From the NCBI RefSeq assembly GCF_000521605.1, contig NZ_CP006942.1, positions 62,001 through 126,000 of the forward strand: 64,000 nt of DNA. The letters are read 5' to 3'. Positions 18,438 through 34,264 of this stretch are shown piece by piece. The stretch is from Mannheimia sp. USDA-ARS-USMARC-1261. GTDB lineage: Bacteria; Pseudomonadota; Gammaproteobacteria; Enterobacterales; Pasteurellaceae. Both the position numbers and the translations under genes were made by a program. Below the pieces are notes generated by a model. It was not told the DNA's origin and did not search any database. It worked only from the letters and a program-made list of their open reading frames with translations. Position 1 is the stretch's first letter, and the number at the start of each line of letters is the position of its first letter.

Positions 18438-18466
18438 ACAAGCGGTCATATTTTGTAAAAAAATTG
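18438..18466 (+). repeat. Left capsule-flanking direct repeat, first half
   Basis: This is the first 29 bases of a 54-bp sequence whose intact copy lies at 33267-33320. The second half resumes at 19542, after the insertion element. The last 8 bases (AAAAATTG, 18459-18466) are the target duplication of the element. Confidence 0.85.
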
Positions 18467-18506
18467 GGGATAGTGGACAAAATTGAGTCTGATTTCCCAA
18501 TGAACT

Positions 18507-18540
18507 AGCCATAGTGGACATTTTTGAGTCTGCTATGGCT
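18507..18540 (-). other. Internal copy of the IS end inside a hairpin
   Basis: ATAGTGGACATTTTTGAG at 18511 matches the terminal repeat except for a three-base AAA-to-TTT change. It is bracketed by AGCCATAG (18507-18514) and CTATGGCT (18533-18540), which pair perfectly. It lies just past the transposase stop codon and could be a relic of an older end or a transcription stop. Confidence 0.55.
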
Positions 18541-18546
18541 TTATTT

Positions 18547-19456
18547 TCAACTCTTTTGGCAAACAAAATCCTTTATAAACATCATCTTATGTTCATCAGT
18601 TAGTCCTTGATGTGGCACTAATTTGACTTTCATTTGTCTAAAAAATGACTCCACCAAGTTGGTTGTATGTGCAATGTTTAACTCGGGATACGCTTGATAG
18701 GTAAATAGATAGTTTATGCTACGTTTTAAACCCCAATAAGCACTCCGTAATCGCTTATGTTTAAATCGTTTTGGGTTGGTTGCAGAATGTTCATTGAAAT
18801 AACCTTTATGTTTATTTAACCATACAGATAGGGCTAGAGTAAGTGTCTCTTGTGTTTGAAATTTAAGTGAGTAATAAAGCGATAGTAGCTCTTTTCCTGC
18901 CTCTGATTTTGGTGATTTTGTTAAATAAAAAATACCTCGCCCGATTTGATGGAAGTGGCACATTTGGGTAGGAATATTGGGGTAAGCATTTAATAATCCT
19001 CTTCTTCCATCACAGGTAATTGATTGAATGTTAATTCCTTTTTCAATTAACGCTGAGATAGCGTCAAAATAATATTGATTTTTCTCCGCAGAAATAAAGC
19101 GAAAATAAATCGGCTTTAAAGATAAGGAATCCATTAGGATAAGTACAGCAAAACGTTGTTTAAAGTGAGTGGTATCCATCACGATATTTACTGTTTGAGG
19201 AAGAGATTTTTGCTCGGCTTTTGTCGCTTTTTCGAGATGCCTTCTAATCGTCCGTTCAGAACATTGGTATTCAAAAGCAAGTTGTTGAATCGTTTGTTTT
19301 TGAGAACTGTACTTAAACCAAATTTCTTCGGAATTAAGTCGCTTAGATGCGACAAAGTTACGGTTACAATCAAGGCATTTATAGCGTTGGATACCGTTAA
19401 TTTTACCGTATTTTTTGAGATTAAAAGATGAGCAGAAAATGCAATTTTTTAGGCAT
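18547..19456 (-). pseudogene. IS256-like transposase, frameshifted near its start
   Basis: Read on the minus strand from an ATG at 19456, the protein would start MPKNCIFCSSFNLKKYG and have about 303 residues. It has a zinc-ribbon (CIFC then CLDC), a helix-turn-helix (QQLAFEYQCSERTIRRHLEKA), and a DDE domain with Asp in IVMDTTHF, Asp in ITCDGRRGLL and a downstream CHFHQ and NLVESFFRQMK. As read, a run of six T at 19445-19450 (A on the coding strand) puts the ATG out of frame; five would restore it. The intact frame has no ATG before the DDE Asp at about 19180. It is either a one-base disruption, a slippage site or a homopolymer read error. Confidence 0.75.
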
Positions 19457-19541
19457 TTTTATAAAAAGTAGGTTAAAGCCTTATATTACAAGGTTTTAAC
19501 CTAATTTACAGACTCAATTTTGTCCACTATACCAAAAATTG

Positions 19542-19566
19542 CAAATTATGACCGCTTTTGGTTTAT
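19542..19566 (+). repeat. Left capsule-flanking direct repeat, second half
   Basis: CAAATTATGACCGCTT and the following TGGTTTAT continue the repeat split by the insertion element. Joined to 18438-18466, with the 8-bp duplication counted once, it matches 33267-33320 with a single mismatch. It overlaps the stop codon of kpsS. Confidence 0.85.
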
Positions 19567-20774
19567 AAATTATAGGGATAACGAAGAATAGATTTATTAT
19601 AGAAATTACCGTTAATATGTGTTTTATGTAAATGATATTGGCGATAACCTTTAAAGACTTCCTCATTTGGTGGTTGTGGGTTCACCCAAAAAGTATCTAA
19701 TGATTGCTGATCCGTTAATCCTTCAAAATCGTAATTTGCTCGCCCTAAGGTTTTTACCGACATATTATGTAATAAACCTGAAAGCCCGCTTGTTGAATTT
19801 AATGTAACCATACCTTTCCCTTTTCTTAAGAAAACAGGTAAAGGTACATCGTGAATATAAAAAACTTTATTGTTTAGATGAGGGTATTTTTCTAAAAATT
19901 CATAAATTACAATTTTATAATCAATAAACCCTCTATCCATTGGATGATGTTTGATAATTAAATTTAAATGTGAGGGAGCAAATTTTGCAAAAGAAGTTAA
20001 TACTTCTCGTAAAAAAATCTCAACACTTTTTTGATCGCTATGTATTCTTACTTGTGTGTCATCGTAAACTTGTAGTGGTACAATAAAAAAATTGCCGAAT
20101 TCACCATTTTCTACTCTTTTTGCAAAGCCACTATCATATAACCAATAACATAGTCTTTTTATGAGAGATTTTGACCATAATTTAAGATAATACCCTAAAT
20201 TAATAAAACGATGATGTTGATATTTAGGATATTCTTTACGTTTCTCATAGGCTTTTAAATAATAATGAATCGCTCTTTTTGCCATATATTTAAAGCCTTT
20301 TGAAACTTTTTCAGGCTCAGGCGAATTTAGTTTTGAATATTCTAAAAAGAAAGATTGATTTCTTGGCAGTGGAGAAAATGCATTTACACCCCATTTTTCA
20401 AGCGTAATATATTCGGGGCGGAAATAACCTTCTTCAAATGCCCAGAAAATAATATCTAAATTTGAGCAAACATTTTTAGCTATCTTATGGTAATAACGAT
20501 TATCACCAAAACATAAGATATTATCTATTTTATTTTTCCGGCAAAAATTAACTAAGAAATTTTCAAAATTTTCTAAACTATCACGATAAGCAAAAGTATT
20601 TGATCTATCATTCGGATAAAAATATTCATCACCACCATTGAAGTTTAATTTAAAGACGGTTTTTTGTTCTTTTTCTAGCCAATTTGCAAAATCTGTGAAA
20701 AAATATCCTATCGGACCTTGTAATAACAAAATCCGTTGGCTATTTTTAATTAATTCATCTAAATAATGTTCCAT
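19563..20774 (-). CDS. kpsS: Capsule lipid-linker Kdo transferase KpsS
   Basis: This protein of 403 residues belongs to the KpsS/LipB/HcsB/PhyB family. In group 2 capsules KpsS adds the first beta-Kdo to lyso-phosphatidylglycerol, starting the linker on which the polymer is exported. Recognisable features are ILLLQGPIGYFFTDFANWL at the N-terminus, the acidic FWAFEEGYFRPEYITLEKWGVN around residues 130-150, and the LIIKHHPMDRGFIDY segment near residue 280. It lies 23 bases downstream of kpsC in the same direction, as in other Pasteurellaceae capsule loci (phyA-phyB). Its stop codon touches the left flanking repeat. Confidence 0.9.
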   Translation of the reverse strand: MEHYLDELIKNSQRILLLQGPIGYFFTDFANWLEKEQKTVFKLNFNGGDEYFYPNDRSNTFAYRDSLENFENFLVNFCRKNKIDNILCFGDNRYYHKIAKNVCSNLDIIFWAFEEGYFRPEYITLEKWGVNAFSPLPRNQSFFLEYSKLNSPEPEKVSKGFKYMAKRAIHYYLKAYEKRKEYPKYQHHRFINLGYYLKLWSKSLIKRLCYWLYDSGFAKRVENGEFGNFFIVPLQVYDDTQVRIHSDQKSVEIFLREVLTSFAKFAPSHLNLIIKHHPMDRGFIDYKIVIYEFLEKYPHLNNKVFYIHDVPLPVFLRKGKGMVTLNSTSGLSGLLHNMSVKTLGRANYDFEGLTDQQSLDTFWVNPQPPNEEVFKGYRQYHLHKTHINGNFYNKSILRYPYNL

Positions 20775-20797
20775 TCAGAGACCTTCGCTAAATTTAA

Positions 20798-22885
20798 TTA
20801 ATGCTGTGAAGTTTGACTAAAAACTCGATAAAGTTGTTTTAACTTTCCATATTGTTTACTTATCCAAGAACGCTTAATACCGTGATTAGATAATTGTTGC
20901 TTCTGTTGCATTAATAAATTAATGGCTTGATTGGCATCAATAAATTTACCCTGAATGGGGTCAATATAAAGCGGATAATAAATTAATGTTGCTGCAATTA
21001 ATTGTGATAATGTAAGTGTTTTATTACGGCGTTCTATTTGTAATAAATCTTCTGTTAGCCCCCAACCAGCATAGAAAGGTATTCCATAACAATGCACTTT
21101 TTTACCTCTTAATAATGCTTCGAAACCAGCTAGAGAAGTCATTGTGTGCACTTCATCCACTTTTAAAATACAATCTAGAATATTCACATTATCGACAATA
21201 AGATCAGCAAAATGGAGAACTTCCAACTTTGGAATATTGCCAATTCTATTTCCACTAACTACATCAGGATGCGGTTTATAAACAATATAGGCTGTAGGGT
21301 TTAGCTCTCTGACTTTTTTTAATAAATCCAGATTTTTCTTAATTTGTGGAGAACCTGATTTAATTGAAGCATCGTCTTCAACCTGCCCCGGTACTAAAAT
21401 AATTTTTTTGCCTTGAGCATTAAAATCGACATCGCCACTACCTACATTGTATTTTCCAATATGGCTTGCAACTAACTTTTGTCTTAGAGCTTCAGCATTA
21501 GACAAATCATTATCAGAAAAATGTTCTGCCTTCAATAAAATTTGTTCTAATCGAGAAGTAGTTTCCGAATTAAAATAAATGCCTAAATCATCAATCACTA
21601 ATGAAAGTGGAGCAACTAAATTTGCTCCTAGCCCAACAGAACGAATAAAACCATCTTCCATTCTTAGTAACGGAATATTATTTTGTTTCGCAAATTGTAG
21701 AATTTCAGGCTTACCATTACTCCAAACAAGAATTTTTGCATTCTCTGCAAGCGGTCGTTTTTTTAGAGAATTTAGCGAACGAACAAAATACAATTTACAT
21801 TGTGGTGGGTTAAAAAATGGCTTAATGACTGCCTGTTTCCATAATGACATTCCAATGCAATAAATATTTCCGCTTAGACGTTGATTCAATATTTTTACTT
21901 TATGCAAATAATCAATCACATCAAAAATTGAACCACTCTCGCCAGTATTTGGATTAATATAACGGCTATAATTAAAATAAGCAGCATAAAAAAGCTGAAG
22001 TAATGAACGTTTTACCCTTCTATTTTGCTGAAAAAGTGATTGAACATTCTCATTTCGATCATCCGTTACCCCCCAACCGGCAAACCAGGGTACGCCGAAA
22101 GTAATCACTTTTTTGCCTAATAACAATGCTTCAAACCCCATTTGAGAAGTTACGCAATACACTTTCTCACACCATTTAATTAAACTTGCCGGGTTTACAT
22201 CTTCGGTAATAATCCGTACTTTATCGGTATATTGGGGTAAATCAGTTAGATAGCCTTTTTTCTTACCACTTAACACATCTGGATGGGTTTTTACCCAAAT
22301 TTGAGCATCAGGATTTTCACTTATTGCTGTTTCTAACATATTATTAAAATCAGCTTCATTTGCCTGACCATATTTCACTGCCATATCGCCAAAGGTTTGG
22401 TCGATAACTAACACAATCTTACTCTCTGGAGGGACTTGCTCGCAGAAATCTAATGCGTGATTATATTTTGACAGTTGGTAAGTTAAAATTTGAGATAAAG
22501 CTTTCTCTGCGATTTTGATATTAGCTTCACCTTGCAGAGGTTTGTTCAGTAATAGATTTTCTAGACGAGATGGACGAGTCGTATCGTAATATATCCCTAC
22601 ATCATCATACACAAGAGAAAATGGTGGATAGCCTTTTACGCCCAAACCTAATGAGCGAAGAAAGCCGTCTTCTAATGATACAAAGGGCAAGTTGTGCTTA
22701 ACTGCATAAGCACGGGCTTTTTGAGTAGAGGGGCGAAGCCCCCAGCCGAGAACTTGATCTACTTGAGTTTTAGAGAGAAACTTAATCGCAAAATAAGATT
22801 TTCGGATTACAATACATTCAGGTAAAAAACTTTGCAAAAAAGGGATTTTTAAAATCCCTTGAGAAAAGATAAAAGAGTAATACAT
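20798..22885 (-). CDS. kpsC: Capsule lipid-linker Kdo transferase KpsC
   Basis: This protein of 695 residues is the two-domain KpsC/LipA/HcsA/PhyA enzyme that extends the beta-Kdo linker of group 2 capsule glycolipids. The duplication is plain: SLEDGFLRSLGLG and RMEDGFIRSVGLG, KTHPDVLSGKKKG and KPHPDVVSGNRIG, and VPWFAGWGVTDD and IPFYAGWGLTED recur about 330 residues apart. Length matches E. coli KpsC (675). It is cytoplasmic and works with KpsS. Kdo for the linker depends on arabinose 5-phosphate from an enzyme such as GutQ. Confidence 0.93.
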   Translation of the reverse strand: MYYSFIFSQGILKIPFLQSFLPECIVIRKSYFAIKFLSKTQVDQVLGWGLRPSTQKARAYAVKHNLPFVSLEDGFLRSLGLGVKGYPPFSLVYDDVGIYYDTTRPSRLENLLLNKPLQGEANIKIAEKALSQILTYQLSKYNHALDFCEQVPPESKIVLVIDQTFGDMAVKYGQANEADFNNMLETAISENPDAQIWVKTHPDVLSGKKKGYLTDLPQYTDKVRIITEDVNPASLIKWCEKVYCVTSQMGFEALLLGKKVITFGVPWFAGWGVTDDRNENVQSLFQQNRRVKRSLLQLFYAAYFNYSRYINPNTGESGSIFDVIDYLHKVKILNQRLSGNIYCIGMSLWKQAVIKPFFNPPQCKLYFVRSLNSLKKRPLAENAKILVWSNGKPEILQFAKQNNIPLLRMEDGFIRSVGLGANLVAPLSLVIDDLGIYFNSETTSRLEQILLKAEHFSDNDLSNAEALRQKLVASHIGKYNVGSGDVDFNAQGKKIILVPGQVEDDASIKSGSPQIKKNLDLLKKVRELNPTAYIVYKPHPDVVSGNRIGNIPKLEVLHFADLIVDNVNILDCILKVDEVHTMTSLAGFEALLRGKKVHCYGIPFYAGWGLTEDLLQIERRNKTLTLSQLIAATLIYYPLYIDPIQGKFIDANQAINLLMQQKQQLSNHGIKRSWISKQYGKLKQLYRVFSQTSQH

Positions 22886-22909
22886 TTTAAATATAGATAT
22901 TCAGGTAGT

Positions 22910-24061
<1,152 letters not shown>

Positions 24062-24114
24062 TTAAATCTACCTATAAAATAATTAATTTTGTTTCAGATG
24101 AATGTAATATAGGA

Positions 24115-25044
24115 TTATAATAGAAATCTATTCAAAAATTTTAAATCATTCCTCATTAAACCAAAAACACCAAAGAAAGAAGCTATGAAATAATTATAAC
24201 ATCCTCTAAAATCTAATTTTCTATGAATTAGATAAAAGAATATATAACTTACAATTTCTATAAAAATCTTTCTTGTTCTTTTAAATCCTTTGAGATTTTC
24301 TCTATACATATAAAATTTATTTCTAACAGAAAAGAAATTCTTGATTTTATTATCAATATGATAGAATACCTTATTTCCAACCTCAAATATTTCATTTAAA
24401 GATGTTGGATGAAATATCTCGCCTTCCGTTACAACCCCCACTTTAAATCCCGATTTAATAATTCTTTTCTTATATTCTACCTCATCACCTCGAATAAAAA
24501 AAACAGGATCAGGATAACCAATCTCCTTAATTACATTATAATCAAATAATGCACCATTAAATAATTTTAAATCTCCTTTAATGATTTTATGTTGTTTAAC
24601 CTTATCTAAATCACTATATTTTATGCCTTCTACATTGTAAAGAAAAGCTGTTTTGCCTCTATTCTTTATGTCAACTACTATAGGAGAAACAACATCTAAA
24701 TCATATTCATATTTCTTACTTAATAGTATGTTTATGAAATCATCATCTTCTAATACTGCATCGTCATCTAAAGTAATTATAAAATCACTAGAAAGATGAA
24801 TAGCCTCTTTTAACCCTATATTAAAACCACCTGCACCCCCGATATTTTCTCTGGTAATATGTAAAGTTATGTTGATAGCCTTTCTATAATGGTTAATAAC
24901 AGATACTGTTTGATCATTGCTTGCAGTATCGACAATTATAACATTATTAACCTTAACACTCTGCGATAATATATGTTCCAGTAATCTACCAATAACACTC
25001 TCTGAATTATGGGTTACTATAACTATAGCTATATTTTTTCCCAT
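24115..25044 (-). CDS. Glycosyltransferase family 2, GlfT-like
   Basis: This 309-residue GT-A glycosyltransferase begins IAIVIVTHNSESVIGRLLEH and has NIGGAGGFNIGLKEA, the metal-binding DDD at residues 93-95 (TLDDDAVLED) and FFIRGDEVEYKKR near residue 187. The GGAGGF plus DDD plus RGDExEY combination is that of galactofuranosyltransferases of the GlfT type and of rhamnosyltransferase relatives. With glf as the next gene, a role in adding a galactofuranose or neighbouring residue to the capsule is likely. A basic, poorly conserved tail (about 230-309) may dock to the membrane. Base composition is more AT-rich than in the flanking operons. Confidence 0.8.
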   Translation of the reverse strand: MGKNIAIVIVTHNSESVIGRLLEHILSQSVKVNNVIIVDTASNDQTVSVINHYRKAINITLHITRENIGGAGGFNIGLKEAIHLSSDFIITLDDDAVLEDDDFINILLSKKYEYDLDVVSPIVVDIKNRGKTAFLYNVEGIKYSDLDKVKQHKIIKGDLKLFNGALFDYNVIKEIGYPDPVFFIRGDEVEYKKRIIKSGFKVGVVTEGEIFHPTSLNEIFEVGNKVFYHIDNKIKNFFSVRNKFYMYRENLKGFKRTRKIFIEIVSYIFFYLIHRKLDFRGCYNYFIASFFGVFGLMRNDLKFLNRFLL

Positions 25045-25050
25045 TTTGTA

Positions 25051-25773
25051 TTATCTGCAAGTTCTTGGACGAGGCTTACCCGTTTTTAAAATAACATCGG
25101 GAGCATATCCTAAGTGCTCATATAATTCCTTATGTTTTGGTATTCTCATTTTTAACATTCCCTCTATATTATTAATATGATTGTATACTATCTCTTGGGC
25201 TTTAATATAATCAAGATGATGATCAGGATTGTTTCTAACGAAGCGAGGAGCACTAATTGGATTATTATTTGAATCTATTAACGCATATAAGCAATTAATG
25301 GTTGGAATAACTTCAGAAATTCTGTTTGCAAAATCTAGCATCAATTTTCCTCTTACTTTGTAAGGTAAAGGAGGATAATCCCAATAATCATCCTTAAGAG
25401 CTGTTGGAGGAGCTGTAAAAACAGCAAAAATTTTAGAAAATCCCATCCTATTTAAGAATTTTTTCATTTCTAATAATCCTTCGCACATTTCATTTAAAAA
25501 ACGAGGAATATCATAATAATGTTGATGATGCATTTTATAAGGTAAATTAAAATCAATATCTACATTACCAAAATGAAGAAAGATATTTGCATCTTTAGAA
25601 ATCGTTTCAAGATAAGGAATATAAGGTTTCATATCTTCATTGGATTTTTTTAAATTTCTTAATCCTCTTGCACTCCAACCTGATGCCCAAAATGGATAAT
25701 ACTGAGGATTATTCCCAAATATATAATCAAATACTTCAGATGAAGATGAACCAAAAACAATAATATCACGCAT
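25051..25773 (-). CDS. Capsule-locus paralogue C, SGNH-hydrolase-like (function unknown)
   Basis: This protein of 240 residues is one of three tandem paralogues. It opens DIIVFGSSSSEVFDYIFG and has YYPFWASGWSARGL (residues 25-38), LHFGNVDIDF (about 71) and a late NPDHHLDYIKAQE. The positions resemble blocks I, III and V of SGNH/GDSL hydrolases (Ser in GxSS; Asp/Asn in GNVD; His in DHHLD), but the match is partial and I do not recognise the family with certainty. No signal peptide is present, so it is cytoplasmic. The C-terminus ends PRPRTCR, sharing PRxxTC with its two neighbours. A role in capsule modification is possible. Confidence 0.65.
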   Translation of the reverse strand: MRDIIVFGSSSSEVFDYIFGNNPQYYPFWASGWSARGLRNLKKSNEDMKPYIPYLETISKDANIFLHFGNVDIDFNLPYKMHHQHYYDIPRFLNEMCEGLLEMKKFLNRMGFSKIFAVFTAPPTALKDDYWDYPPLPYKVRGKLMLDFANRISEVIPTINCLYALIDSNNNPISAPRFVRNNPDHHLDYIKAQEIVYNHINNIEGMLKMRIPKHKELYEHLGYAPDVILKTGKPRPRTCR

Positions 25774-25802
25774 AATTAAACTAAATAATCCTTTTCATAA
25801 CA

Positions 25803-26519
25803 TTATCTACAAGTCCTTATTCTAGGGGAATTATCCTTTAAAATAGACTTAATATGCTTAGGCATATGTACATATAATTCGGTATGCTTGGGATTTCTTT
25901 GCTCTAAAATTCCATCAATTTCTAATAAATTAGAATAAACTACATCTTGTGCTTTTACATAATCAATATGGTGATCATTTTTATCCCTTAAAAATGAGGA
26001 ACTACAAACAGGATTATCTACCGACTCAATTAAAGAATAAAAACAATTAACCATAGGAATAGAATGAGATAATTTTTTTACAAAATTTAAGTATAAATTT
26101 CCTCTTGTTTTATGAGGTAAAGGAGGATATGCCCAATATACATCAGGTAATCCTATAGGAGCTATAGGAAGAGCAGCATATATATTTGAAAAACCTAATT
26201 TATTCAGGTAATCTCTTAATGCTAGAATTCCCTCACACATTTCATCTATAAATTTAGGAAAATTATAGAATCTTTGATTATGGATTTTATAAGGTAGGTT
26301 AAAATCTAAATCTACGTCCCCAAAGCAGAGAATTATATTTGCATCTTTTGATATTTGGGATAAATAAGGAATATAAGGTCCCATTACATTATTAGGTTCT
26401 TTTAATCCTCTTGCACTCCAACCTGATGCCCAAAATGGATAATAATGAGGATTATCACCAAAAATATAATCGAAAACCTCAGTTGATGACGTTCCAAAAA
26501 CTACTAATTCTTTAGACAT
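25803..26519 (-). CDS. Capsule-locus paralogue B, SGNH-hydrolase-like (function unknown)
   Basis: This protein of 238 residues is the middle paralogue. Matching segments are ELVVFGTSSTEVFDYIFG, YYPFWASGWSARGL, LCFGDVDLDF and DHHIDYVKAQD, and the C-terminus ends PRIRTCR. The ATG at 26519 was chosen over an upstream TTG at 26531, which would extend it by four residues. It lies 29 bases upstream of paralogue C and 18 bases downstream of paralogue A, so all three are cotranscribed. Of the three, B and C look most alike in the stretches compared by eye, such as the shared PRxRTCR ending. Function is unknown. Confidence 0.65.
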   Translation of the reverse strand: MSKELVVFGTSSTEVFDYIFGDNPHYYPFWASGWSARGLKEPNNVMGPYIPYLSQISKDANIILCFGDVDLDFNLPYKIHNQRFYNFPKFIDEMCEGILALRDYLNKLGFSNIYAALPIAPIGLPDVYWAYPPLPHKTRGNLYLNFVKKLSHSIPMVNCFYSLIESVDNPVCSSSFLRDKNDHHIDYVKAQDVVYSNLLEIDGILEQRNPKHTELYVHMPKHIKSILKDNSPRIRTCR

Positions 26520-26537
26520 AAAATAATCCAACTTAAC

Positions 26538-27278
26538 TTATATACATGTATTTGCTCTTGGTTGCTGCTCTTTCCTTACAGTATCAACACCGACATTTTT
26601 ATGAATATAATGTACTGTATGCTTTGGGTTTCTTTGCGAGAGCATACCTTCTAATTCAGATAAAGCAGAATAAACAAGGTCTTGTGCTTCAATAAAATCG
26701 ATGTGATGACTAACCCTAGCCCTTGTATAATCAGGTGAACAAATAGGATTTTTATATGATACTATCAGTTTATCTAAGCAATTAATACTCGTTGTCAACT
26801 TGCTTACTTCACTAGCAAAATCTAGCAGCATTTGCCCTCTAATTTTTAAAGGAAAAGGCTTAAATTTAAAGACATTTTCCCAATGACTACTTGGCAACCA
26901 GATAGGTGGTGAAGTAAATACAGGATATATATTTTCAAAACCGTAATTTTTCTGTAAAAATGCTCGAAAAGCAATTATACCATCAATCATTTCTTTCAAG
27001 AATAAAGGAAGATTATAAAATCCAGTATCTCTTGCTAGTATAGGTAAACCAAATTCAATATCTGTCATACCAAAATGGAGTAGAATAATAGAATCTTTAG
27101 GTAATGTTTCTAAGATAGAGGCATAAGGCTTAATATCCACATCAGAATGTTTAATTTGATTTAAACTTCTAGCACTCCAGCCAGATGCCCAAAATGGGTA
27201 ATAGTTTTTATTCTTCCCAAAAATATAATCAAATATTTCTGCAGAAGAGTCTCCAAAAACAACTAGTGGTTTTTCCAT
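26538..27278 (-). CDS. Capsule-locus paralogue A, SGNH-hydrolase-like (function unknown)
   Basis: This protein of 246 residues is the first of the tandem set in transcription order. It reads PLVVFGDSSAEIFDYIFG at residues 4-21, so it has a true GDS at block I. It then has YYPFWASGWSARSL, LLHFGMTDIEF, and SHHIDFIEAQD, and ends PRANTCI. The ATG at 27278 follows AGAAGGAAT at good spacing; an upstream in-frame start at 27332 lacks a site. The presence of GDS makes an SGNH-type esterase or acyltransferase the best guess. The other copies have changed Asp to Thr or Ser, which does not affect the putative nucleophile. Confidence 0.65.
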   Translation of the reverse strand: MEKPLVVFGDSSAEIFDYIFGKNKNYYPFWASGWSARSLNQIKHSDVDIKPYASILETLPKDSIILLHFGMTDIEFGLPILARDTGFYNLPLFLKEMIDGIIAFRAFLQKNYGFENIYPVFTSPPIWLPSSHWENVFKFKPFPLKIRGQMLLDFASEVSKLTTSINCLDKLIVSYKNPICSPDYTRARVSHHIDFIEAQDLVYSALSELEGMLSQRNPKHTVHYIHKNVGVDTVRKEQQPRANTCI

Positions 27279-27396
27279 TAATATATTCCTTCTTACTAGC
27301 GTATGAAATTTTGAAATCATTTTATTATCCATATTTTATTGCTATTCAATAGACTTCCTACTATAAAAAATAATAGGGAGCCTATAATATAGGCGT

Positions 27397-29163
27397 TTAT
27401 GAAAATATAGTCTTCCAAAAATCAAATTTCTTATATTCGTTAATTGTATTCCAATTATCTTCTTTAATTGCATTAATGTATGTTTTTCTTGCTTTTAGTA
27501 TCTCTGAAAGTAATTGGCGGAAAATTTCTTTATCAGGCGAATATAAGTAAAAATAGCTCTGAATACCATTAGTTTTAATATAAGGTTTACAGGCAACATT
27601 TTGAGGAGCAACATCTCTATCCCATAAATGTTTGGCTTTATGCTTAGAAAAATCATTCATATAAAGCAACATTGTTTGTTTGGCGAAATTAATTCTTCGC
27701 TCAGTTGAAATCCATTTTGGTTTTAATTCATTTTCACCAGCTGGATTAAATACGGTGCTTTCTAAACTCACCGGTGCAAATTTTTTGGCAATATCGCTGA
27801 CTTTTTTATGAACTTCATTCGCTGGGACATCAAATAATGCGGTTCCTTTAGCGAAATCATTAATAGCTTCTAAAATTAATTTAACAGACTGATAATCGTG
27901 ACATAATAAAAGATTATAAATTTTTAAGAATAATTTATTTACATTTTCACTTTTTAATTGCTCATAGCTACTTGTCAAAATCATTCTATTTCTGAAATCA
28001 TAATACGTTTGCCACCCACCGATTTTTGCATAGAACGGTTCGTGCCATAAAGCAACGCCAGGTAACCCAACGGTTTCTACACCATTATTTTTTAATCGTA
28101 ATCCGTACTCTAAGTCATCACCACGAATAAAAATCGGTGCTGGAAGATTAATTTCTGCTATTTTCTTCGTTGGAATCATACAGAACCACCAAGCATTATA
28201 ATCAATCTTCGTTACTTTATTAAATAAATGGAAATTTGCCATATCAGCAACATCTAAATTATGAAAAATTGCTTTTATATTGCCATTATGATCCAATTTT
28301 CCACCGTATTCGTGCATAAAGTTAGGTCTTAATAGATCTAACATTTGCCCACCGACAGCAATTTCCCTTTTAGCTAAGCTTGCAAAGCAAAATGCTGTTT
28401 TAATAACATTAGCGTCAAGGATAATATCATCATCCATTAATAGATGGAGATCTGATATTTCATTTTGAGAGGCTTCATACAATGTTCTAGTAAATCCCCC
28501 CGCTCCACCTAAATTACCTTGCTTATAAACTTGAATTAAGGTTGGATTAGCCTCTATTAGTTTAACTAGCTTCTTATTGGAAAATAAATCTCCTTGATTA
28601 ACAATAATAATCTTGCTTAAGTTTGGTAGTTTTTTAGAAAGATCTACTAAGGACTCTAAATTCTGGCATAAGAAATCTTCCTTATTAAAGGTACATAATC
28701 CAATACTTAATTTTTTATCAATAGTATTAGGAATACAAAATTCAATAGACTCAATTTCAGTATGAGTGTCTTTGGAATCTATATCGATAAATATGCGACC
28801 GCTATCAGGAATTAAATCATCCAAAGATAGATTTAATTCTATGGTCTTCATTTCCGATGAAACTAAATGGGAGTCTAATAGTAGGTAGCATCCATTCATA
28901 GGGCTATCTCTATAAATAGATATAATGCAATCACCTTTGAATTTTACAGAGAGGGTAATAGATGAGAGAGTAGTATATTGTTCCCAATAACTTTCGTAAA
29001 AAGAGTTTAGGTAACTATTAAAAGACACCTTTGAGTTAGGGTGTAAAACCAGAGATGAACCTGTTAAATTTAAATCATAACGACCATATACAAGATTTAA
29101 ATATAATTTTTTAACCTTTTCTAAGTTAGACCTAGGAAATTGTAAAGATTGCATAGAAAACAT
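27397..29163 (-). CDS. GlfT2-like polymerising galactofuranosyltransferase
   Basis: This protein of 588 residues has the layout of mycobacterial GlfT2. An N-terminal beta-sandwich-like region (1 to about 150) precedes the GT-A domain, which has LSIGLCTFNKEDF, NLGGAGGFTRTLYEA, DDD at 244-246, FIRGDDLEYGLR (Asp349-Asp350) and LWHEPFY (His374). In GlfT2 the corresponding residues are the metal-binding DDD, the catalytic Asp pair and a metal-binding His. A helical C-terminal domain follows. It is the first gene of the minus-strand capsule operon, and with glf it predicts a capsule with a galactofuranose-containing repeat. The start could be the ATG three codons later. Confidence 0.85.
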   Translation of the reverse strand: MFSMQSLQFPRSNLEKVKKLYLNLVYGRYDLNLTGSSLVLHPNSKVSFNSYLNSFYESYWEQYTTLSSITLSVKFKGDCIISIYRDSPMNGCYLLLDSHLVSSEMKTIELNLSLDDLIPDSGRIFIDIDSKDTHTEIESIEFCIPNTIDKKLSIGLCTFNKEDFLCQNLESLVDLSKKLPNLSKIIIVNQGDLFSNKKLVKLIEANPTLIQVYKQGNLGGAGGFTRTLYEASQNEISDLHLLMDDDIILDANVIKTAFCFASLAKREIAVGGQMLDLLRPNFMHEYGGKLDHNGNIKAIFHNLDVADMANFHLFNKVTKIDYNAWWFCMIPTKKIAEINLPAPIFIRGDDLEYGLRLKNNGVETVGLPGVALWHEPFYAKIGGWQTYYDFRNRMILTSSYEQLKSENVNKLFLKIYNLLLCHDYQSVKLILEAINDFAKGTALFDVPANEVHKKVSDIAKKFAPVSLESTVFNPAGENELKPKWISTERRINFAKQTMLLYMNDFSKHKAKHLWDRDVAPQNVACKPYIKTNGIQSYFYLYSPDKEIFRQLLSEILKARKTYINAIKEDNWNTINEYKKFDFWKTIFS

Positions 29164-29462
29164 AATTAAAAACTTAGATTTGATGAAAATAACATATAAT
29201 AGTAAATGATAAAAAATATCTTAAATTTGGTTAAAATATTTAATTTTAACTTTATCTTGTAAAGATATTACTAAACTAACTGGCTTTTATACTAAGGATT
29301 ATATCATTTAATCTCTTAAAAGATAAGTATTCTTTAAAACTTTTAAATTTTTGCAAGATTTTGGTAAATTTTACTACTTTACCTTCTATTGATTCAATAT
29401 CATATATTACCCAGAGTAAAGAGATATATGATATACTACTCATACCTTAATAATTAACAATT
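29164..29462. promoter_or_regulatory. Divergent promoter region of the capsule locus
   Basis: This 299-base gap separates the capsule synthesis operon (minus) from the export operon (plus). It is very AT-rich and holds no USS core and no exact CRP site. The clearest structure is an 11-bp perfect inverted repeat, ATATCATATAT at 29397-29407 and ATATATGATAT at 29424-29434, with a 16-base loop, ending 28 bases before the cpxD start. Several TATAAT-like and TTTAAAT-like elements are present, but no single promoter can be chosen. Confidence 0.55.
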
Positions 29463-30647
29463 ATGCATATGAAGATAAAAAAAATCACCTCTATTTTAGC
29501 AGTAATAACCTTACTTTCAGCCTGCTCTAGTCTACCCACCTCAGGTCCTAGCTATAGTAAGGTGTTAGAGGCAAATGAGAGAACATCTGAAGCAAACCTA
29601 CCCGAAGTTAATCTAATCAAACTAGATAATATTACCGCACAGAATTTATACCAAGCCCAACAAGCCCAACGTTTTTCGGGTTTTGATGGCTCAATGGGTG
29701 GCGGTGGTTATGCCGGTACAGTCAATGTGGGGGATGTATTGGAAATTTCTATTTGGGAAGCTCCGCCTGCGGTTTTATTCGGTGGAACATTTAGTACTGA
29801 GGGGCAAGGGAGCGGGCATTTAACCCAACTTCCTCCGCAAATGGTTAATAAGAATGGGACGATAACAGTACCATTTATTGGTAATATGAAAGTGGCAGGT
29901 AAAACACCAGAAGCTGTTCAAAGCCAAATCGTTGGGGCATTAAGTCGTAAAGCAAATCAACCTCAAGCTTTAGTACGCATTGCGAGTAATTTATCATCTG
30001 ATGTAACAGTAGTTCGTCAAGGTAATAGTATCCGTATGCCGTTAAGTGCGAATAATGAACGCATTTTAGATGCAGTTGCAGCAGTAGGCGGTACAAGTGA
30101 AAATATTGAAGATGTAACTGTTCGTTTAACACGTGGAAATAAAGTGCGTTCTATGGCATTTGAAATATTAATTGCAGATCCATCGCAAAATATTGTGTTG
30201 CGTTCCGGTGATGTTGTAGCTTTAATGAACACGCCTTATAGTTTTACCGGATTAGGGGCAGTGGGTAATAATCAGCAGGTGCGTTTTTCAAGTAAAGGAA
30301 TCACTTTAGCCGAGGCTATCGGTAAAATGGGTGGTTTAATTGATGAGCGTTCAGACCCCCGAGGTGTTTTTGTATTCCGTCATATTCCATTTACACAATT
30401 AGATTATAACGATCAGTCTTTATGGCGTGAAAAAGGTTATACAGAAGGAATGGATGTACCAACGGTTTATCAAGTAAATCTACTTGAGCCACAATCGATG
30501 TTTTTATTACAGCGTTTTCCTGTTCAGGATAAAGATATCGTTTATGTATCAAATGCACCACTGTCTGAATTCCAAAAATTCTTGAGAATGATTTTCTCGA
30601 TTACATCGCCAATTACAGGTACAGCGAATACGATCAGAACTTTTTAA
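29463..30647 (+). CDS. cpxD: Capsule export outer-membrane lipoprotein (Wza/BexD/CtrA type)
   Basis: This lipoprotein of 394 residues forms the outer-membrane channel through which the capsule is exported. The signal peptide ends with the lipobox LLSAC (Cys21). The polysaccharide export domain follows with GTVNVGDVLEISIWEAPPA near residue 85 and NGTITVPFIGNMKVAGKTPE near residue 140, then SLBB-type repeats. BexD of H. influenzae and HexD of P. multocida are the same length. The start is ATG 29463 or ATG 29469; neither has a strong ribosome site. cpxC follows. Confidence 0.92.
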   Translation: MHMKIKKITSILAVITLLSACSSLPTSGPSYSKVLEANERTSEANLPEVNLIKLDNITAQNLYQAQQAQRFSGFDGSMGGGGYAGTVNVGDVLEISIWEAPPAVLFGGTFSTEGQGSGHLTQLPPQMVNKNGTITVPFIGNMKVAGKTPEAVQSQIVGALSRKANQPQALVRIASNLSSDVTVVRQGNSIRMPLSANNERILDAVAAVGGTSENIEDVTVRLTRGNKVRSMAFEILIADPSQNIVLRSGDVVALMNTPYSFTGLGAVGNNQQVRFSSKGITLAEAIGKMGGLIDERSDPRGVFVFRHIPFTQLDYNDQSLWREKGYTEGMDVPTVYQVNLLEPQSMFLLQRFPVQDKDIVYVSNAPLSEFQKFLRMIFSITSPITGTANTIRTF

Positions 30648-30719
30648 TTATTGATTAAAAATATATTTGCAAAAAAATCTAAAAAAATAACCGCTTATAA
30701 GCTATTTATTGAGGACATT

Positions 30720-31823
30720 ATGTCGAAAAAGAAAAAAAGTTTTTTAGCCAATCCATTACTTTGGCTAACAGTAATTATTCCAACAGCTTGTGCGAGTATC
30801 TATTACACGTTATTTGCTTCTGATATTTATGTTTCAGAATCAAGTTTTGTTGTACGTTCTCCTCGTAATCAATCTAGCTTAACCGGTGTGGGAGCGATAT
30901 TACAAAACTCCGGCTTTTCTCGTTCACAAGATGATACTTATTCTGTACAAGAGTATATGCGTTCGCGTACTGCGTTGGAGCAACTTGAAACGGAATTACC
31001 TGTAAAAAGCTTTTATAGCACACAAGGTGATATTTTAAGCCGTTTTAATGGTTTGGGTTTAAATGATTCACAAGAAGCATTTTATCGTTATTTTAGAGAG
31101 CGTCTTAATATTGATGTTGATGCGATTTCTGGCATTGCTACTTTACGCGTTCGAGCCTTTAATGCTGAAGAAGGGCAACAAATTAATGAAAATCTTCTCA
31201 GACAAGGTGAGGATTTAATTAATCGTTTAAATGAGCGGGCTAGAAAGGATACTGTTGAGTTTGCGGAACAGTCAGTTCAAGATGCTGAAAAAAATGTGAG
31301 TGATACAGCTCTAGCATTAAGCCAGTACCGTACAAAAAATAAAATTTATGATTTACCTGCTCAGTCAGGAGTTCAACTTTCGTTAATTTCAACTTTAAAA
31401 AGCGAATTAATCCGCGTTGAAACTCAGTTAGCACAACTGCAATCTATTACACCGGAGAATCCTCAAGTTGCAGCACTACAAACAAGACAAAAGAGTTTGA
31501 GAAAAGAAATTGATGAACAATCAAAACAACTTTCCGGTGGAAGTACTTCTGTTGCAACTCAAACAGCAGAATATCAACGTTTAGTATTAGCAAATGAGCT
31601 TGCTCAGCAACAACTTTCCGCAGCAATGACCTCATTACAAAATACGCGTGGTGAAGCTGATCGTCAGCAACTTTATTTAGAGGTGATTGGTAAACCAAGC
31701 AAGCCGGACTGGGCATTAGAACCCTACCGAATTTATAATATTATTGCGACTTTCTTTATCGGCTTAATTCTATTTGGGGTATTAAGTTTGTTGGTTGCAA
31801 GTATCAAAGAGCATAAAAACTAA
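30720..31823 (+). CDS. cpxC: Capsule export inner-membrane/periplasmic protein (KpsE/BexC type)
   Basis: This 367-residue polysaccharide co-polymerase links the inner-membrane ABC transporter to the outer-membrane channel. It has a membrane segment at about residues 13-35 (PLLWLTVIIPTACASIYYTL) and another at the C-terminus (YNIIATFFIGLILFGVLSLL), with a long periplasmic coiled-coil region between (about 150-330, rich in Gln, Glu and Ala). The ATG at 30720 was chosen for the GAGGAC upstream; a TTG at 30651 would add 23 residues. The last base of the stop codon is the first base of the next ATG. Confidence 0.92.
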   Translation: MSKKKKSFLANPLLWLTVIIPTACASIYYTLFASDIYVSESSFVVRSPRNQSSLTGVGAILQNSGFSRSQDDTYSVQEYMRSRTALEQLETELPVKSFYSTQGDILSRFNGLGLNDSQEAFYRYFRERLNIDVDAISGIATLRVRAFNAEEGQQINENLLRQGEDLINRLNERARKDTVEFAEQSVQDAEKNVSDTALALSQYRTKNKIYDLPAQSGVQLSLISTLKSELIRVETQLAQLQSITPENPQVAALQTRQKSLRKEIDEQSKQLSGGSTSVATQTAEYQRLVLANELAQQQLSAAMTSLQNTRGEADRQQLYLEVIGKPSKPDWALEPYRIYNIIATFFIGLILFGVLSLLVASIKEHKN

Positions 31824-32620
31824 TGCGATATGGTGATAATACAACGTTTAAACGTTCTTGCGTTATTCAAAAAAGAGTAATTCACGCTCTTTTAATGAGG
31901 GAGTTAATTACTCGCTATGGACGTAAAAATATTGGTTTTTTGTGGCTTTTTGTTGAACCTCTACTATTAACTTTACTTATTGCACTATTATGGTCATATA
32001 GCAAAGCCGATCAATTTTCTACGCTGAATATCATTGCTTTTATGATTACAGGGTATCCTATTACTATGATGTGGAGAAATGCATCTAATCGAGCCAAAGG
32101 GGCTATTGAGGCAAATATTAGTCTTCTATATCATCGAAATGTAAGGGCATTAGATACTATTTTTTCTCGTGTTTTGTTGGAGGTTGCTGGTGCAACAGTT
32201 GCACAAATTTTCATAATGATAGCATTTATTACCTTAGGTTGGATTGAGCCTCCTAACGATGTATTCTATATGCTAATAGCTTGGATATTAATGGCATTTT
32301 TTGCTTTTGGATTAGGATTGATTATTTGTGCTATTACATATTATGTTGAAGCTTTCGGGAAAATATGGGGGATTTTGAGTTTTGTACTATTTCCCCTATC
32401 TGGTGCAATGTTTTTTGTCCATAACCTCCCCCCTAAGGCACAAGAAATAGCTCTTTGGTTTCCTATGATTCATGGTACAGAAATGTTTCGTCATGGTTAT
32501 TTTGGTGAAACAGTAATTACTTATGAAAGTATCAGTTTTATTATTGTCAGTGATATTATTTTTATTTTCTTGGGATTATTGCTGGTAAGGAATTTTAGCG
32601 AAGGAATTGAACCAAGATGA
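31823..32620 (+). CDS. cpxB: Capsule export ABC transporter permease (KpsM/BexB type)
   Basis: This 265-residue protein has six predicted membrane helices and is the permease of the ABC-2 transporter that moves the capsule glycolipid across the inner membrane. The N-terminus reads [21 protein letters not shown], a typical amphipathic start of the family, and [24 protein letters not shown] is the conserved loop before the last helix. Length matches BexB and KpsM. It overlaps cpxC by one base and cpxA by four bases, indicating tight coupling. Confidence 0.93.
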
Positions 32621-33264
32621 TTAGTGTTAAAAATGTAAGTAAGCGATATCGAACAAATAGTGGTTGGAAAACTGTATTAAAAGATATCAATTTTGAGCTG
32701 AAAAAAGGTGAAAAAGTCGGTATTTTAGGTAGAAATGGGGCAGGGAAATCAACACTAATTCGCTTAATGAGTGGTGTAGAACCACCAACAACAGGTGAAA
32801 TTGATCGTCAAATGTCTATCTCTTGGCCCTTGGCATTTAGTGGTGCATTTCAAGGAAGTTTAACCGGAATGGATAATCTACGGTTTGTAAGTAGAATTTA
32901 TGGTGCAGATTTTGATTATGTAAAATCCTTTACAGAAGAATTTTCTGAACTAGGCGAATACTTATATGAGCCGGTAAAAAGCTACTCATCCGGTATGAAA
33001 GCAAGACTTGCTTTTGCTTTATCACTTTCAATTGAATTTGATTGCTACTTGATTGATGAGGTTATTGCGGTAGGGGATTCTCGATTTGCAGCAAAATGTA
33101 AGCACGAACTATTTGAAAAACGCAAGGATCGCTCACTCATTTTAGTCTCCCATAGCCCTGCCTCTATCAAAGAATATTGTGATTCAGCAATGGTTTTAGA
33201 AGAGGGGATTATGCATACCTTTGATACTATTGATAATGCCTATAATTTCTATAACAGAAAATAA
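32617..33264 (+). CDS. cpxA: Capsule export ABC transporter ATPase (KpsT/BexA type)
   Basis: This ATP-binding protein of 215 residues powers capsule export. Walker A is GRNGAGKST (residues 38-46), the signature is [14 protein letters not shown] and Walker B is [14 protein letters not shown]. The family-specific loop after Walker B and the short C-terminus match KpsT and BexA. The name here is the Actinobacillus capsule name and is unrelated to the CpxA sensor kinase. The stop codon lies two bases before the right-hand flanking repeat. Confidence 0.95.
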
Positions 33265-33266
33265 CA

Positions 33267-33856: not shown

Positions 33857-34264
33857 ATGTTAGATAATATTAAATCCGGATTTAGAAATAGTCTTGTTAC
33901 TTTATTAGAAATAATTCAAGTTCGTGGTGAAATGGCAAGGTTGGAAATTAATGAACAAAAAAATCAATTAATTTCTGTTTTAGTTTTAGCATTATTAGTC
34001 TTTATATTTTTATTATTTGCATTTGTTAGTTTATTATTTGCTTTAGATAATTATTTATTACCAGAATATAAAGTAGTAGCATTTTTTGCTATTTCAGGCA
34101 TAAGTTTAGTGTTAGTTTTACTTTTTGTTTGGGGAATTATAGCTTCATTGAAAAAACAAACCAGTTTTATGCAAAGCACATTAGATGAACTGAAATTAGA
34201 TATTGCCGCATTTAAAAGTGCATTAACTTTTAAAGATACTTTTAGGGATAATAATGGGGAGTAA
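33857..34264 (+). CDS. YqjE-like phage-holin-family membrane protein
   Basis: This protein of 135 residues has two adjacent membrane helices, LISVLVLALLVFIFLLFAFVSLLFAL and VVAFFAISGISLVLVLLFVWGI (each over 20 residues in a row of hydrophobic type), between short charged ends. E. coli YqjE and the family often called putative holin 3 superfamily II share this shape. In E. coli the gene order yqjD-yqjE-yqjK is the same as here. No lysis function is implied. The stop overlaps the region upstream of the next ATG. Confidence 0.8.
   Translation: MLDNIKSGFRNSLVTLLEIIQVRGEMARLEINEQKNQLISVLVLALLVFIFLLFAFVSLLFALDNYLLPEYKVVAFFAISGISLVLVLLFVWGIIASLKKQTSFMQSTLDELKLDIAAFKSALTFKDTFRDNNGE

Follow-up and report, generated by a model that had tools for sequence, protein, structure and literature searches.

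The described systems closest to three tandem genes of Mannheimia sp. USDA-ARS-USMARC-1261, here called famA, famB and famC, are enzymes of the SGNH/GDSL superfamily, several O-acetyltransferases, and loci for galactofuranose (Galf) polymers in Gram-negative bacteria. The three genes lie at 25051-27278 in the 64,000-nucleotide stretch analyzed here (contig NZ_CP006942.1, positions 62,001 to 126,000; hereafter the window, in whose numbering coordinates are given unless another locus is named). They sit within a likely capsule operon and belong to an unnamed family with the predicted SGNH fold of esterases and acetyltransferases, which probably decorates a Galf polymer before its export. The papers cited below are represented by excerpts, and statements about each apply to the part excerpted.

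Resemblance to the SGNH/GDSL superfamily (PF13472 and relatives) extends through the fold of famC residues 1-207 and includes a G-x-S block I, a Gly after strand 2, and a His ahead of a late helix, whereas the family has an invariant set of its own, consisting of FDYxFG (first Phe in 16 of 17 members), WxxGWxxR, and HxxxxxxQ. The peptidoglycan O-acetyltransferases OatA and PatB share the SGNH fold, and both are among the Protein Data Bank (PDB) neighbors of the famC model described below. OatA and PatB work outside the cytoplasm, with the acetyl group handed over by a membrane partner or domain; unlike OatA and the AT3-SGNH membrane acyltransferases, the three proteins studied here have no hydrophobic segment and no membrane domain.

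Two further acetyltransferases offer precedents by analogy. CASD1, which has an SGNH-like domain (PF13839, PC-esterase), forms an acetyl-Ser intermediate from acetyl-coenzyme A (acetyl-CoA) and acetylates CMP-N-acetylneuraminic acid (CMP-Neu5Ac), with the canonical Gly and Asn missing (PMC4510713). The missing Asn is shared with the present family; unlike the family, CASD1 lacks the Gly too, keeps D270 and H273, is Golgi-luminal, and is joined to membrane helices, and PF13839 was not among the five Pfam families matched by the 17 family members at E≤10. CASD1 is a precedent for an SGNH-like acyltransferase with a noncanonical site. CsaC of Neisseria meningitidis serogroup A is a Ser-His enzyme that uses acetyl-CoA and acts on the assembled group 2 capsule polymer, for which 3-deoxy-D-manno-oct-2-ulosonic acid (Kdo) is the acceptor (PMC7501274). 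A group 2 capsule on a Kdo acceptor is the point of likeness, the fold and the sugar (N-acetylmannosamine-phosphate) being different, and CsaC is the functional precedent for acetylating a Kdo-anchored capsule.

WcbI of Burkholderia (PF18588), a proposed capsule acetyltransferase that binds CoA, is described as a 310-residue protein with a largely novel, mainly helical fold (PMC4104973). Identity with WcbI was rejected on the lack of a PF18588 match together with this different described fold; WcbI was found in 3 of 120 relatives, with no known carrier of the present family among the three.

Among Galf systems, the pamABCDE genes of Kingella kingae include Glf and a GlfT2-like enzyme of glycosyltransferase family 2 (GT2), which make a Galf homopolymer (PMC12269835). 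The two loci have in common that a Gram-negative bacterium combines Glf with a synthase of GlfT2-like type; the Kingella locus differs in having four glycosyltransferases and a mutase and in placing its galactan on lipopolysaccharide, and the excerpt lists no SGNH-like gene. The six-gene capsule locus of Actinobacillus pleuropneumoniae serovar 16 includes a UDP-galactopyranose mutase, Cps16D, and a predicted CoA-dependent acetyltransferase of apparently another kind, Cps16E (PMC5328458). In the excerpt of a survey of A. pleuropneumoniae capsule loci (PMC6008488), none of six terms looked for occurs. No published description of the family was found in the literature searched (mostly titles and abstract beginnings), and no entry was found that combines SGNH hydrolase, galactofuranose, and acetyltransferase.

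Three tandem paralogs of an uncurated family

As the earlier note had proposed, the genes are adjacent paralogous open reading frames (ORFs) on the minus strand, 46-57% identical in protein sequence (famA-famB 46-47%, famA-famC 47%, famB-famC 56-57%). famA (26538..27278) has 246 codons from the ATG at 27278, with an alternative in-frame ATG further upstream at 27332 that gives 264 codons; AGAAGGAA is located upstream of the ATG at 27278. famB (25803..26519) has 238 codons from the ATG at 26519, or 242 from a TTG at 26531, and famC (25051..25773) has 240 codons. Chance resemblance is excluded, since famA used as a query against its own genome found the other two paralogs at E 7e-75 and 5e-69; the same query found no fourth copy. 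All four motifs named in the earlier note are present in famA, famB and famC, and a real GDS occurs, among the three, in famA only (FGDS; block I of famB reads FGTSS).

The family also proved to be unrecognized, as claimed, in that no Pfam or NCBIfam model was matched over threshold by any of the three proteins. The Pfam scan gave no match for famA, famB or famC at E≤10, and the NCBIfam scan at E≤1 gave only a match of famC to a rhoptry protein model (E 0.24). A PDB sequence search with famA returned nothing, and one with the family profile returned two unrelated matches only (E 0.055 and 2.1). Wider comparisons, including the conservation count and the tree, used 17 members (16 of the 17 rows of alignment A3 plus a member from genome G455), which include two near-copies of each window gene; locus L011, whose block I is garbled and whose assembly has an unread base, was left out of the count and tree, and the broken or short copies L016/L030 and Leisingera M527 (L087) were left out of the alignments. 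Of the five Pfam families matched in total by these members at E≤10, the SGNH model PF13472 was matched by one of 17 (E 0.077), short of a curated-model match, and the other four by one member each (E 0.12-0.57), taken as chance. On a Kyte-Doolittle basis, the three proteins show no hydrophobic segment (highest 19-residue mean 1.00-1.54, and 0.54-0.65 at the N-terminus), consistent with the stated lack of a signal peptide or membrane segment.

Phylogenetic analysis placed the window trio and its counterparts from a second species (genome G091) in one group (FastTree 0.976, ultrafast bootstrap 98), within which each window copy paired with its own counterpart. The tandem pair of Maritimibacter arose separately (0.996, 100), and the two Leisingera copies branched with uncertainty (0.375, 48). 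Between the two species, the ratio of nonsynonymous to synonymous substitution rates (dN/dS) was 0.106 for famC, 0.136 for famB, and 0.081 for famA; the other five operon genes spanned 0.06-0.16, a range that includes the trio. Because values of 0.08-0.14 indicate purifying selection, all three copies are maintained, which supports different roles. That the second species keeps the same trio, each gene with its counterpart, lends support to the suggestion that the triplication reflects different but related jobs.

Predicted fold and active site

The motif spacing had been taken to recall SGNH hydrolases, and structure prediction returned PDB neighbors of the SGNH/GDSL type. The AlphaFold2 model of famC, the only paralog modeled, was built on an 11-sequence alignment that left out L011 and reached a predicted local distance difference test score (pLDDT) of 91.5 and a predicted template modeling score of 0.91. 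In VIA-align, the top rows comprised 4hf7 (Z 14.5, root-mean-square deviation 3.0 over 175 residues), 4iyj (14.5), the sialate O-acetylesterase 6xpm (14.4), and the designed scaffolds 9hi5, 9hi4 and 9hi6 (15.5, 14.6 and 14.4), and lower rows held TesA (12.4), the O-acetyltransferase PatB 8tlb (12.3), and the OSK domain of Oskar (12.1). The remaining rows were, by title, mostly GDSL-like lipases, esterases, acylhydrolases, or acyltransferases, and we take all of these neighbors, in part on assumption, to be SGNH folds; a Foldseek search of the same model also gave OatA 6vjp (E 9e-4). These matches support a predicted SGNH three-layer fold for famC, and the outcome that the earlier note had named as refuting its reading, a predicted fold of another kind, did not occur. 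In the model, strand 1 (residues 4-8) leads into a helix starting at Ser10, Gly32 follows strand 25-29, and His185 and His186 sit just ahead of helix 189-200, placements that would put Ser10 and His185/186 where SGNH enzymes carry Ser and His. The ranges aligned with TesA (4jgg; model residues 2-206 to chain residues 1-180) are compatible with Ser10 and His185 matching the Ser and His of TesA, assuming its catalytic residues to be numbered as we suppose. When the family was compared by hhalign with GDSL ORFs (28 of 30 fetched loci yielded a usable one), the local alignment gave no more than a hint, in that FGNVD was paired with the GGND of block III and His185 with the DGIH histidine, and global mode gave a 23-column alignment without meaning.

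Conservation across the family is concentrated in residues of both SGNH and family-specific character. Invariant in all 17 members are Gly8, Ser10, Glu13, Asp16, Tyr17, Phe19, Gly20, Trp29, Gly32, Trp33, Arg36, Gly69, Gly111, Pro137, His186, Gln193, and Arg210; His185 is present in 16 of 17, as is Asp72 (one gap). Block I therefore reads G8-x-S10 throughout (17/17), with the candidate nucleophile Ser in place, and the block II Gly (Gly32) is likewise found in 17/17. The Asp of GDS, present in famA, occurs in 2/17 members only and falls away as a family feature. The reading of the motifs as SGNH blocks consequently stood in part: the fold and the placement of blocks I, II and V agree with it, and the Asn of block III and the Asp of block V are missing, so that neither the oxyanion hole nor the triad is canonical. 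L011, outside the count, reads FGIND in block III, that is, with Asn. The identification as a canonical SGNH hydrolase was rejected on the failure of these two residues, although the fold was found.

The noncanonical active site and the distinctive invariant set would also suit a different mechanism on the SGNH scaffold, built on the invariant Glu13, Asp16, Trp33 and Arg36 and the near-invariant Asp72, by which another group (phosphate-linked or amino-acid) is handled or a glycosidic or phosphate bond of UDP-Galf or galactan is attacked; the invariant Arg and Trp beside block II could bind a nucleotide sugar. The retention of Ser10, Gly32, and the His pair at their canonical places argues otherwise, as does the operon, in which no gene making another donor was found, and we consider such a reaction improbable. 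For the phosphate-linked side group raised in the earlier note, nothing was found in support.

The capsule operon and its polymer

The genes for the GlfT2-like protein, famA, famB, famC, a GlfT1-like protein, Glf, KpsC, and KpsS follow one another in this order on the minus strand with intergenic gaps of 6-64 bases (longer starts used), and on these grounds are likely one operon. The first gene (27397..29163) encodes a GlfT2-like galactofuranosyltransferase that matched Pfam Glft2_N (PF17994, E 4e-17). Its profile (alignment A5) matched the PDB entry for GlfT2, 4fix, at E 1.1e-62, its model (moderate, pLDDT 65) matched GlfT2 in Foldseek at E 1e-31, and D244-D246 and D349-D350, of a GT-A core with DDD, were invariant in 5/5; the N-terminal domain, the GT-A core with DDD, and the overall fold of GlfT2 were all found in this gene. 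A search of the window's genome for the GlfT2 C-terminal domain PF19320 was negative at E≤0.001. From sequence, the GlfT2-like gene is probably a galactan polymerase, and the GlfT1-like GT2 gene (24115..25044; NCBIfam GlfT1, E 1.2e-48, 165.9 bits, under the curated cut-off of 330) probably encodes the priming galactofuranosyltransferase.

UDP-galactopyranose mutase (Glf; 22910..24061; PF03275, E 4.5e-81; TIGR00031, 331.7 bits, cut-off 303.75) would be the source of UDP-Galf in the operon, and it is the only sugar-nucleotide enzyme that Pfam and NCBIfam found among the other five operon genes, with no other acyltransferase found among them in the same scans. The remaining two encode capsule linker proteins, one KpsC-like (20798..22885; PF05159 in three stretches, E 4e-109), a label that we presume from length and domain, and one KpsS-like (19563..20774; PF05159, E 1.5e-102; NCBIfam KpsS, E 4e-112, 375 bits, under the cut-off of 600). 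In group 2 capsules, KpsC and KpsS provide a Kdo linker, and the polymer is assembled in the cytoplasm and then exported by an ATP-binding cassette (ABC) transporter. Putative Wza-like, KpsE-like, KpsM, and KpsT export genes (29463..33264, plus strand; assigned by sequence and gene order) are read divergently from the operon, and the four have homologs by phmmer at several other family loci. With Glf over curated cut-offs and two Galf-transferase-like GT2 genes, KpsC, and KpsS on the same strand, the description of the locus as a galactofuranose capsule operon is well founded.

The segment 22910-29163 holds a mycobacterial-type galactan set (GlfT1-like, GlfT2-like, and Glf) upstream of KpsC/KpsS in a group 2 capsule locus. 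Such a gene set suggests a Galf homopolymer capsule, and we infer a capsule that is rich in, or made wholly of, Galf. The locus points to a capsule in a Pasteurellaceae-like genome that is made by enzymes of the GlfT1/GlfT2 type, familiar chiefly from the cell wall of mycobacteria. Scans for promoters (47, with 57.4 expected) and terminators (5, with 3.9 expected) were uninformative.

Distribution and co-occurrence with galactofuranose genes

The family is rare and patchy. It is carried by 2 of 140 genomes of the window's family (famA query alone), 3 of 394 of the family of Sulfitobacter HGT1 (about 6 candidates scored per genome), and 1 of 298 of the family of the Sphingobium carrier (about 8 candidates scored per genome). 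A one-genome-per-species scan recovered 9 loci, an undercount because only two rigid peptide patterns were used, and three Leisingera plasmids carry a family match, one of them short. A phage origin was rejected, as famC finds no relative in phages and none of 118 pattern matches in viral contigs was confirmed; in a search of BFVD, viral proteins matched by fold only (8-17% identity).

The position of family genes relative to Galf genes varied among the loci compared, which exclude the plasmid of NJS204. They are in the same operon as glf in the window and G091, directly beside glf in Epibacterium (L012) and Leisingera NJS201 (two tandem copies), and beside glf as broken or short copies in Leisingera aquimarina and M527. 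In Sphingobium, the family gene and glf share a capsule region and are separated by about 12 kb; in Donghicola, the family gene lies in a capsule locus with a GlfT2-like gene, and glf is on another contig; and in G455, the family gene and a GlfT2-like gene have 23 bases in common and lie at 0.19 Mb on the contig, far from glf at 1.96 Mb. Loci of Gemmobacter lutimaris (L008), Sulfitobacter (L009), Maritimibacter (L010), and Gemmobacter aquatilis (L013) are away from both genes; the Pfam-scanned neighbors in L008, L009, and L010 are mostly housekeeping genes, L013 was checked by phmmer only, and the 16.8 kb of L011 contain no capsule relative. The strongest indication that the substrate is a galactofuranan comes from the genomes of L008, L009, L010, and L013, all of which encode both Glf and a GlfT2-like protein elsewhere.

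Glf is encoded in 11 of 11 carrier genomes searched (excluding the genome of L011 and including G147, the genome of L016). In the roseobacter family (that of Sulfitobacter), Glf is found in 30 of 149 genomes, two of them carriers, and after removal of these carriers (G141 and G145) in 28 of 147 non-carriers, among which a missed member is possible because six candidates were scored per genome. The contrast between all 11 carriers and these non-carriers has a Fisher p of 6e-8 (1e-6 without the window's genus), and in the window's own family, 47 of 140 genomes encode Glf, both carriers among them. A relative of the window's GlfT2-like protein occurs in 11/11 carriers versus 12/27 Glf-positive non-carriers at E<1e-10 (p 0.002), a contrast that is weaker at E≤0.001 (11/11 versus 16/27, p 0.016); the 27 exclude G222, which has a weak, broken Glf match. 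On these counts of 11/11 and 12/27, the pair of Glf and GlfT2-like protein looks necessary, not sufficient, for the family, and the link of the family to galactofuranose is supported.

Co-occurrence with GlfT2-like transferases, together with the gene overlap in G455, would also be expected if the proteins were non-catalytic SGNH-fold partners of the GlfT2-like polymerase that set chain length or linkage. The loss of two canonical catalytic residues would suit such a role, as would the presence among the fold neighbors of the OSK domain of Oskar, which we take to be a non-enzymatic SGNH-fold protein; a scaffold would not need a Ser invariant in 17/17 or a His pair kept in 16-17/17, and this partner role appears distinctly improbable. 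Also against it, E. coli needs no more than the K. kingae genes pamABC, which encode a mutase and two transferases, to make galactan, according to the excerpt (PMC12269835).

The copies in housekeeping regions would suit an editing role, in which cytosolic Galf-specific esterases remove or edit acyl groups on UDP-Galf, the polymer, or misacylated intermediates, and most structural neighbors are in fact hydrolases, such as sialate O-acetylesterases and GDSL lipases. Such esterases would have no evident ester substrate, since none of the other five operon genes is predicted to encode an acyltransferase, and three conserved copies are hard to explain by editing; the missing Asn and Asp do not favor hydrolysis over transfer. 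Esterase activity of this kind is judged unlikely.

Several individual loci have features of their own. In G455 (L028 7371-10842), the overlapping pair adjoins an N-acylglucosamine 2-epimerase-like frame, and, of the window's capsule proteins, KpsT alone has another relative in the 19.5 kb fetched, a 614-aa ABC protein. The tandem Maritimibacter pair (L010 9055-10723) is embedded among peptidoglycan and cell-division genes (Mur ligases, MraY-like, FtsW-like, and glycosyltransferase family 28), an odd place for a polysaccharide-modifying enzyme. In Leisingera NJS201 (L004 7564-9362), the annotation splits the GlfT2-like gene into two hypothetical genes that overlap and differ in frame; M527 has a single 1800-base gene at the corresponding place (L087 1578-3377), but a short family gene. 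A 653-aa frame in Sphingobium (L015 3108-5069) fuses a glycosyltransferase family 8 domain with an FkbM methyltransferase domain.

Proposed role in capsule acylation

Acyl transfer is the most likely activity because the proteins are cytosolic, keep Ser and His, are tied to a galactofuranan probably made in the cytosol, and are kept in three copies in an operon with no other acyltransferase, and sugar acylation is, by inference, the best reading. We see about an even chance that the three proteins are cytosolic Ser-His SGNH O-acyltransferases, probably acetyl-CoA-dependent, which decorate the galactofuranan at different positions before ABC export. In such a pathway, Glf would make UDP-Galf, and in the cytoplasm the GlfT1-like and GlfT2-like transferases would assemble galactofuranan on a Kdo linker of the kind that KpsC and KpsS are expected to provide. 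The block I Ser of each paralog would be loaded with an acyl group, in all likelihood an acetyl taken from acetyl-CoA, the presumed nucleophile being Ser10 of famC activated by His185 or His186. The paralog would then transfer this group, rather than release it by hydrolysis, to a Galf hydroxyl of either the lengthening chain or UDP-Galf. The ABC transporter would then export the decorated chain, and the three copies may divide the labor by differing in the position or residue acylated.

A number of findings weigh against this proposal. The G-x-x-D of block III has Asn at its third place (position 71) in 0/17 members, and the Asp of the block V DxxH (position 182) is present in 1/17; judged from these residues, the noncanonical site weighs on the presumed Ser-His catalysis. 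No CoA-binding feature was identified in the family, the PDB neighbors count more hydrolases than transferases, and the local hhalign comparison with the 28 GDSL ORFs was not significant (p 0.085). In the fetched flanks of 5 of the 9 scan loci (L008-L011 and L013), neither Glf nor the GlfT2-like protein nor a Kps protein has a relative, a weak ABC ATPase in L013 being the one exception, and for four of these five genomes, the Galf link consists of co-occurrence elsewhere in the genome only. Glf and a GlfT2-like protein occur together in 12 of the 27 Glf-positive non-carriers, where the family is absent, and PF19320 is found in 3/11 carriers only, two of them over the cut-off. Finally, the co-occurrence statistics ignore relatedness and set carriers from at least three families against a background of one.

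A more specific form of the proposal, which we hold to be possible but doubtful, is that these are undescribed soluble cytosolic acyl-CoA SGNH O-acyltransferases that work without the oxyanion Asn and triad Asp and are specific for GlfT2-type galactofuranans, with three copies writing position-specific acylation on a Galf homopolymer capsule. Sister enzymes of this kind would allow the change from SGNH fold to sugar acyltransferase without the canonical Asn and Asp to be tested. A family whose occurrence follows that of Glf and of GlfT2-like polymerases in distant bacteria could also serve as a marker of galactan-making organisms. Mammals are not known to contain galactofuranose, and the antigenicity of surface polymers is shaped by how they are decorated.

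Composition and boundaries of the capsule region

The capsule region has a G+C content of about 0.27-0.36, versus about 0.41-0.44 in its flanks. The 9-mer ACAAGCGGT, which we take to be the uptake sequence of the Actinobacillus branch of Pasteurellaceae, is present in 27 copies in the window (0.31 expected by chance) and in none within 18447-33266; an AT-rich interval without ACAAGCGGT is what one would expect of an acquired island. A 211-aa open frame (18547-19182) next to the end of the operon matches the IS256-type transposase model NF048019 of NCBIfam over profile positions 91-299 of 304, its C-terminal two thirds. Directly after the export genes, a 135-aa ORF (33857-34264) matches Phage_holin_3_6 (PF07332, E 1e-12).

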